A stretch of DNA of 64,000 bases from Luteimonas marina. Lineage in GTDB: Bacteria > Pseudomonadota > Gammaproteobacteria > Xanthomonadales > Xanthomonadaceae. Below, in pieces: positions 9,997 through 38,810 of this stretch (within the stretch, counting starts at the first letter, position 1; each line of letters begins with the position of its first letter). The translations under genes were made by a program, and so were the position numbers. The notes under the pieces were generated by a model that made no database searches, was not told where the DNA came from, and saw only the letters and a program-made list of their open reading frames with translations. The DNA lies in NCBI RefSeq assembly GCF_007859325.1, contig NZ_VOHK01000004.1, positions 186,001 to 250,000 of the forward strand. Direction: 5' to 3'.

Positions 9997-10073
9997 CCGC
10001 GCAGCTTACGGACGGCGGCTGAACGCACGCGTGAAACCACTGGGCCAGGAATCGCGTCGACAAGCGCCAGCTT

Positions 10074-10371
10074 GTGGGAGCGACCTTGGTCGCGATGCTT
10101 TTTCGGAGGGCTGAGGGCTAAGAGCCTGTTCAAAGTCTCTATGGCGGTCTGTGCCGGATCGTCGTCCCGGCGAACGCCGGGATCCAGTTTTCGCCTGCAG
10201 AGACAGGACTGCCGCCGAACGGAAGGCTGGATCCCGGCGTTCGCCGGGATGACGAGCGAGGTTCGGGACGTTGAACAAGCTCTAAGGGCCGGAAAGCGGG
10301 AAGTGCGACGCTTCTGCTTTTCAGCCCTCAGCCGCCGAACATCCCCCATTCGCGCCCAAGGGCGCTCCCAC
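10074..10371. repeat. Composite nested hairpin with heptamer arms
   Basis: This element fills most of the 406-bp gap between relA and the TPR gene and is built like Russian dolls. The outermost arms are GTGGGAGCGACCTTGG... (10074-10096) and its near-complement at 10348-10371. Next come heptamer arms GAGGGCT-GAGGGCT (10106-10119), with the 11-bp GGCTGAGGGCT (10109-10119) exactly complementary to 10323-10333. Next are AGAGCCTGTTCAA (10121-10133) and TTGAACAAGCTCT (10271-10283). The core is a GTCGTCCCGGCGAACG...CGTTCGCCGGGATGACGA palindrome. No gene is seen inside. Confidence 0.8.
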
Positions 10372-10402
10372 GGGGCATCGCCACCCTGGATCGGGACCCG
10401 CC

Positions 10403-21838: not shown

Positions 21839-21951
21839 GATTCGTGATTCGTGATTCGTGATTCGTGATTGGTGATTCGTGATTCGTGATTGGTGATTCG
21901 GGAAAGCAACGACTCCTGCCTTTCCGAACCACCAATCACCAATCACCAATT
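21839..21951. repeat. Heptamer-arm hairpin, unit GATTCGT/GATTGGT
   Basis: The left arm, 21839-21901, is nine 7-bp units: GATTCGT x4, GATTGGT, GATTCGT x2, GATTGGT, GATTCGG. The right arm, 21920-21951, carries ACCAATC-ACCAATC-ACCAATT. The inner stem GATTGGTGATTCGGGAAAG pairs with CTTTCCGAACCACCAATC around a 13-nt loop. The element fills the whole queE-queC gap and ends two bases before the queC start codon. Confidence 0.9.
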
Positions 21952-25455: not shown

Positions 25456-25583
25456 CGGAGGTTCCTGGAACGGGTTGGATTGGGGCGGCGACAGCTTGGC
25501 GTCGAATCGTCGCGGGAAGATGAACGGCGGCGGACTTGGCGGGCGCCGGGCACGAGTGAAGGTCAAGTCAACACCTCAACACC

Positions 25584-25798
25584 CGTCATCCCCGCGAAGG
25601 CGGGGATCCAGCGTCTTCGGGCCTCTGACGGGCTTGGCTCCCTGTCATTTCGACCGCAGGGAGAAATCCGGTCTCCGCTGCAGGTGAAAGGAGGATTTCT
25701 CCCTGCGGTCGAAATGACAGGTTTTTTTCGGGCTGCTCCCTCACCCCGGAGAAGAACCTTCTTAAAGACGCTGGGTCCCCGCCTTCGCGGGGATGACG
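25584..25798. repeat. Nested palindromic repeats between tolA and tolB
   Basis: The outer pair is GTCATCCCCGCGAAGGCGGG (25585) and CCCCGCCTTCGCGGGGATGAC (ending about 25797). Inside is a second, different palindrome, 25641-25720: CTGTCATTTCGACCGCAGGG with CCCTGCGGTCGAAATGACAG, followed on the plus strand by GTTTTTTT. No gene is seen in the 375-bp gap. It may weaken read-through from tolA to tolB. Confidence 0.85.
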
Positions 25799-25830
25799 GG
25801 GGATGCGAGGGATCGCGGTCCGGGATCCGG

Positions 25831-38704: not shown

Positions 38705-38810
38705 GGCCGGGACCGCGGACCGGGGACCGGGGACCGGGAAAAGCCGGGACAGGCGCACGGGGAAGACCAGGCCTTTCCGGGTCCCCGGTCCCCGGTCCGC
38801 GGTCCCGGCC
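38705..38810. repeat. Heptamer-arm hairpin, unit GGGACCG
   Basis: The left arm (38705-38743) and right arm (38773-38810) are nearly perfectly complementary over about 38 bp, each stepping in 7-bp units (GGACCGC-GGACCGG-GGACCGG-GGACCGG). The element begins 2 bp from the ruvC start codon and ends 1 bp from the yebC stop codon, i.e. it is the whole intergenic space. Confidence 0.9.

Follow-up and report, generated by a model that had tools for sequence, protein, structure and literature searches.

At positions 10074–10371 of the 64,000-nucleotide stretch of Luteimonas marina DNA analyzed here (hereafter the window) lies a nest of palindromic repeats that was very probably built up in layers, by three or more separate events, with no need to invoke an attraction of the incoming elements to hairpin centres. 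From the outside in, it consists of a GTAG-type REP dimer (GTGG form), an inverted heptamer (GGGCTGA) element, the ends of an IS5-type mini-transposon and, at the core, a dimer of CGTC-type REPs. The two innermost layers (3 and 4) make up a single mobile unit and arrived together: the unit of 161–162 bp is found a second time in this genome, and other genomes contain CGTC-carrying units with ends of the same family.

Organization of the nest

An inverted-repeat search identifies four inverted pairs, each inside the next: the outermost pair (10074–10095/10350–10371, arms of 22 nt, 91% complementary), the heptamer pair (10109–10119/10323–10333, 11 nt, 100%), a third pair (10118–10137/10267–10286, 20 nt, 85%, flanking bases included) and the innermost pair (10159–10192/10222–10255, 34 nt, 91%). 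Folded as single-stranded DNA, the region 10060–10385 has an energy of −111.4 kcal/mol; shuffled versions average −67.4 (z = −10.8), and none of the 100 shuffles folds as well. A sample of 864 kb, made up of the window and 40 stretches of 20 kb (together 22% of the genome), contains 187 inverted pairs with a score of 15 or higher, compared with 4 in one block-shuffled set. The nested pairs described in the original prediction, which was made from the sequence of the window, are thus real. The prediction counted three repeat families; there are four repeat kinds, two of which move together, and the sequence of the outer arms is actually GTGGGAGCG, not GTAGGAGCG. The symmetry that it noted holds as far as nesting is concerned, but the layers are not concentric: the mini-transposon borders on the left heptamer arm from the inside, at a distance of 2 nt, whereas the right arm is 40 nt away. 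The nest is located between genes for a relA/spoT-type protein (with RelA_SpoT, HD, TGS and ACT domains) and a TPR-like protein, both directed leftward. The only Rfam match in the window is one tRNA.

The outer REP dimer

The outer arms (GTGGGAGCG; 10074–10095 on the plus strand and 10350–10371 on the minus strand), identified by the pair search, the pattern search and the dimer survey, form a GTAG-type REP dimer of the GTGG form, in which a GTAG-like head is followed by a short stem-loop (GTGGGAGCGACCTTGGTCGCGA). The GTAG-type head and the dimeric arrangement resemble those of the GTAG/CGTC REPs as described in the available part of PMC3733652. Genome-wide, the GTGG pattern has 23 + 25 matches (48, overlaps included) compared with 2 + 3 for the reversed pattern, and GTGG and GTAG units are mixed within single dimers, e.g., at L086:15484–15558 and L094:13543–13623. 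When units with at most one mismatch each and less than 450 bp apart are joined, the 864 kb surveyed yield 20 GTAG-type pairs and 19 units left unpaired; 19 of the 20 pairs span 59–81 bp and carry no large insert, and the focal pair spans 298 bp. When the 164 bp of the mini-transposon and one TAA are taken out together with the 62 bp of the heptamer element, 72 bp remain, within the range of the 19 other pairs; without both guests, the focal pair has the length of an ordinary GTAG dimer.

A RAYT gene flanked by REPs is common in the superfamily but does not define every family. The genome encodes a single RAYT-like protein (a Y1_Tnp match), and neither GTAG nor CGTC units were found in the 3.3-kb locus around its gene; the same gene has a TGTCATTTCG-type palindromic dimer no more than a few hundred bases away (L071:8151–8700).

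The heptamer element

The second layer has the form GGGCTGA GGGC, a purine-rich stretch, a loop, GCTTTTC and AGCCCTCAGCC. Its left arm, GGGCTGA GGGCTAA, occupies 10108–10121 on the plus strand, the final TAA being the left target duplication of the mini-transposon, and the remainder (GGGCC, the purine-rich stretch, the loop, GCTTTTC and the right arm at 10323–10333) occupies 10286–10333. A similar heptamer hairpin stands alone at L092:10725–10774. Other heptamers form convergent array pairs in the genome; the focal arms hold about two units or fewer, and true heptamer pairs exist elsewhere in the genome. Inverted heptamer-array pairs are present at L087:18917–19072, where the pair surrounds another palindromic dimer, at 21839–21950 and 38717–38805 of the window, and at L082:17232–17336. 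According to the accessible part of PMC4692102, the heptamer arrays of Xanthomonas likewise form convergent pairs of closely spaced arrays, with 70 and 75 cases in two genomes; those arrays consist of GGGAATC, whereas the focal element consists of GGGCTGA with about two copies per arm.

The mini-transposon and its CGTC dimer

The third and fourth layers make up a composite, non-autonomous mini-transposon of 161 bp (10122–10282) with the ends GAGCCTGTTCAAAG and GAGCTTGTTCAACG, delineated by comparison with its second copy, by the end search and by its IS relatives. Its terminal inverted repeats are contained in the third inverted pair (10118–10137/10267–10286), and it is bordered by a target duplication, TAA, at 10119–10121 and 10283–10285. 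The sequence AGAGCctgTTCAA is an end of this element, with TAA on both sides of the unit, and the ends GAGCCTGTTCAA belong to the same mini-transposon, which surrounds the CGTC dimer at 10159–10255. The arms of this dimer (10159–10192 on the plus strand and 10222–10255 on the minus strand) show the features given for CGTC REPs in section 6 of PMC3733652, namely a CGTC head, a stem of 8–9 bp starting with AT (here ATCCC), a CCA tail and occurrence as dimers. The 864 kb contain 137 CGTC arms and 61 pairs. At 25582–25800 of the window, a second palindrome (a TGTCATTTCGACCGCAGGGAGAAATCC pair) lies within the loop of a CGTC dimer. At L080:11293–11539 (also covered by L003), one CGTC dimer lies inside another, beside an apparent degraded end of the mini-transposon family.

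A second genomic copy of the whole inner unit, at C21:79741–79907, is 87% identical over 166 of 169 bases, and the unit measures 161–162 bp at both sites. This copy abuts an apparent TGA stop codon and is flanked by TGA and TGC, an imperfect duplication; in all 8 relatives searched, the unit is absent from the 130 nt read after the upstream gene. Near-full-length matches occur only at these two places among 41 genomes of the genus, 16 of which contain some match, mostly to the CGTC core (at most 20 candidates scored per genome in either case). The end pattern, with up to two mismatches, matches 24 times in this genome (12 times when reversed), and these two places are the only ones at which it is paired.

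The wider family is represented by 40 end pairs from a stricter end search (a looser search gave 93, many of them chance pairs). Identical 3-nt flanks are present in 18 of the 40, TNA in 17 of these, and the flanks of the other 22 are not identical. At least two CGTC arms are enclosed by 19 end pairs, 6 of which, including the focal one, have identical flanks, all TNA; both pairs with a single CGTC arm, and 10 of the 19 without any, also have identical flanks. The focal TAA fits this TNA target rule. When species genomes are scanned for element ends that precede a CGTC arm, 43 stretches are found, 20 of them in Frateuria sp. Soil773 (10), Dyella sp. AtDHG13 (9) and Dyella silvae (1), where the end pattern with up to two mismatches has 97, 61 and 16 matches, respectively; the other 23 stretches appear by eye to be chance or unrelated CGTC repeats. 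The ends and the CGTC arms are spaced differently here and in Frateuria/Dyella; capture of CGTC dimers may therefore have happened repeatedly.

Related ends (GARCCTGYTCA) without a CGTC dimer are found in two congeners, denoted G024 and G035, and one such element of G024 lies in the orthologous gap. The genome with the most element matches, G035 (21), also contains an 855-bp IS that has related ends and unlike flanks, TAA and TCA, and whose IS5-family transposase is split over two overlapping frames and contains an in-frame stop. The transposase pieces match NCBIfam NF033580 (transpos_IS5_3) separately, each below the curated cut-off, and their matches to Pfam PF13340 and PF01609 pass the cut-offs. 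In Frateuria, IS5-type sequence, interrupted by unread stretches, is likewise found at such ends. A 90-aa transposase query matches one of the 41 genus genomes and gives no match in this genome, nor in G024, although elements are present there. The mobilizing enzyme was therefore not found in this assembly and is missing, lost or too divergent. In several G035 loci (L142, L144, L146 and others), copies of the mini-transposon start exactly at a TGA that resembles the stop codon of the preceding gene.

Origin of the nest

Under the preferred scenario, the base layer would have been a GTAG REP dimer (GTGG form, about 72 bp) between the relA/spoT-type and TPR-like genes, into the spacer of which an inverted heptamer element of about 62 bp probably came next. 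Finally, the 161-bp non-autonomous IS5-type element, with the CGTC dimer already aboard, would have inserted at the TAA that closes the left heptamer arm on its inner side and would have duplicated it, a step supported by the duplication itself, the second copy and the relatives; it was presumably moved by a cut-and-paste reaction of an IS5-family transposase supplied in trans. Because intermediates were not found, sequence support for the order dimer, heptamer, mini-transposon is confined to the last step. From the spacing alone, the heptamer element may be taken to have entered the GTGG dimer, as opposed to two REP units coming to flank the heptamer. The insertion site of the mini-transposon is explained by the heptamer copies, each of which supplies a TNA. 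The near symmetry of the nest is due to the fact that every element is an inverted repeat and each GGGCTGA copy offers a TNA target; inverted-repeat elements between two arms look nested wherever they landed. The layers do derive from different families, as the original prediction held, and the families occur apart (GTAG pairs, the L092 heptamer hairpin and CGTC pairs). Independent entry of every family into the centre of its predecessor, as also predicted, is not supported: the inner two layers arrived jointly, and the mini-transposon lies at an arm edge, not at a loop centre. For the inner half of the nest, the condition that the prediction itself named as refuting it, a single composite element, is thus the observed one.

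Preferential insertion into loops or centres, whereby the single-stranded loops of extruded palindromes would attract later palindromic elements, is the strongest of the competing explanations but is itself unlikely. It draws on the position of the heptamer element, which lies near the middle of the host spacer, 12 and 16 nt from the REP arms, a single case among the 20 GTAG pairs; on the other nests in the 864 kb (window 25582–25800, L080:11293–11539 and L087:18917–19072); and on the mini-hairpins in REP arms and loops discussed below. The nests are nevertheless about as frequent as random insertion into noncoding DNA predicts, with 5 seen and 4.0 expected (P = 0.37; a rough gene mask served here and in the loop count below), even though the sample is tilted toward nests, the window having been chosen for its nest and the stretches L071, L080 and L103 having been placed on already known loci; the excess of centre-in-centre nesting for which the original prediction proposed a genome-wide test is accordingly not significant in this 22% sample, where the power is low. 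Nor are loops significantly preferred to flanks, with 7 features in 4618 bp of loops and 7 in 8872 bp of flanks (P = 0.17), a count from which one of the five nests, a continuous stem at L092:5157, was dropped beforehand and in which the neighbours at L078 enter once from each side, the two L087 arrays lie around a single host and the two L100 arms belong to one dimer. Furthermore, the mini-transposon is off centre, a large insert is missing from 19 of the 20 GTAG pairs, and the mini-hairpin is not among the parts of the focal nest.

Much less probable is that selection built the nest as a transcription terminator or an mRNA-stabilizing structure downstream of the relA/spoT-type gene. The nest does lie directly past the end of this gene, both neighbouring genes are directed leftward and the strand folds strongly; however, none of these layers is seen at the 29 related loci, which were compared by sequence. 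These loci come from a relA-type query that matched 58 of 61 genomes, among which the loci of the best 30, one being this genome, were read. No heptamer match was found among the 29, and the left gene is also missing at 2 of them. Single loose pattern matches occur at L041, L044, L045, L046, L051, L056 and L058; the one at L051 is the G024 element, L041 on re-examination contains no dimer, and the remaining five were judged from 170 nt only. The comparison of strains that the original prediction proposed as a way to reveal intermediate states, carried out here on related species, thus uncovered empty sites and, among the 29 related loci, no intermediate states of the focal nest.

That all four layers constitute a single mobile unit copied whole is least credible of all and was rejected: although the inner two layers do constitute such a unit, only the focal site is matched over the full length of the 298-bp query (among the 40 regions scored out of 195 candidates), the focal pair is the sole 298-bp span in the GTGG pattern search, and GTAG dimers, heptamer hairpins and CGTC dimers are each found without the others.

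A mini-hairpin in REP units

The best support for loop insertion as a general idea, as put forward in the original prediction, is a mini-hairpin of 26–29 nt that lies outside the nest. Frateuria sp. Soil773 contains 186 matches with up to two mismatches. The 31 distinct contexts, taken from 30 loci that are all exact matches at the head of the match list, comprise 18 in the position of the CGTC apical loop, 11 in the tail and 2 others; two of the 31 (one loop, one tail) have no clear upstream CGTC head. Because the carrier units are themselves mobile, many of these copies may share one origin. In the 864 kb of this genome, a strict rule identifies 9 mini-hairpins compared with none in one shuffled set (a looser search gave 20 rows, about half of them chance by eye). 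Eight of the 9 are inside REP arms (L071:16084, L081:17784, L102:13324, L095:248, L065:7709, L084:520, L075:17396 and L100:15125), at a GA^A-like position; one lies in the apical loop and the other seven lie past the stem, and two or more kinds of REP are represented. The sequence of the inner stem varies and its pairing is kept, a pattern that the rule itself partly demands. At L100:14958–15351, the 75-nt arms of an inverted pair surround both a GTAG dimer and a palindrome that contains the mini-hairpin. It is conceivable, at rather less than even odds, that the mini-hairpin is a mobile parasite of palindromes that enters REP units at GA^A, in the apical loop or just past the stem. If so, hairpin-loop insertion would be a valid general mechanism acting on single-stranded hairpins, though not the builder of the focal nest, and the mini-hairpin offers a directly countable test of it.

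Relation to known systems and implications

REP dimers inside other palindromes have already been published: section 7 of Di Nocera et al. 2013 (PMC3733652) describes CGTC-1 dimers of H. neapolitanus within 41-bp palindromes and GTAG-15 dimers of A. variabilis within long palindromes. Compared with the cases in that section, the enclosing palindrome of the focal CGTC dimer is identified as IS5-type ends with TNA duplications, and REP-less relatives of it exist. The unit resembles IS5-family IS and MITEs in its end sequence, the 3-bp TNA duplication and the presence of an IS with related ends in a congener, but differs from them in having a REP dimer as its cargo; searches of the open-licence literature yielded no account of such an IS5-type unit with a CGTC dimer. 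IS elements that target REPs are described in the accessible part of PMC1525189, and that of PMC10969869 places IS1111 in a GTAG REP of QMITE2. The focal nest shares with both the landing of a mobile element in a palindromic repeat; in contrast to the REP-targeting elements as described there, its target rule is TNA, encountered in a heptamer array, and not recognition of the REP.

The CGTC REPs lack a dedicated transposase, according to the available part of PMC3733652. The inner unit indicates that CGTC REP dimers could travel as the cargo of an IS5-type mini-transposon, and the nest as a whole, that a striking symmetrical arrangement is possible without any preference for hairpin centres.
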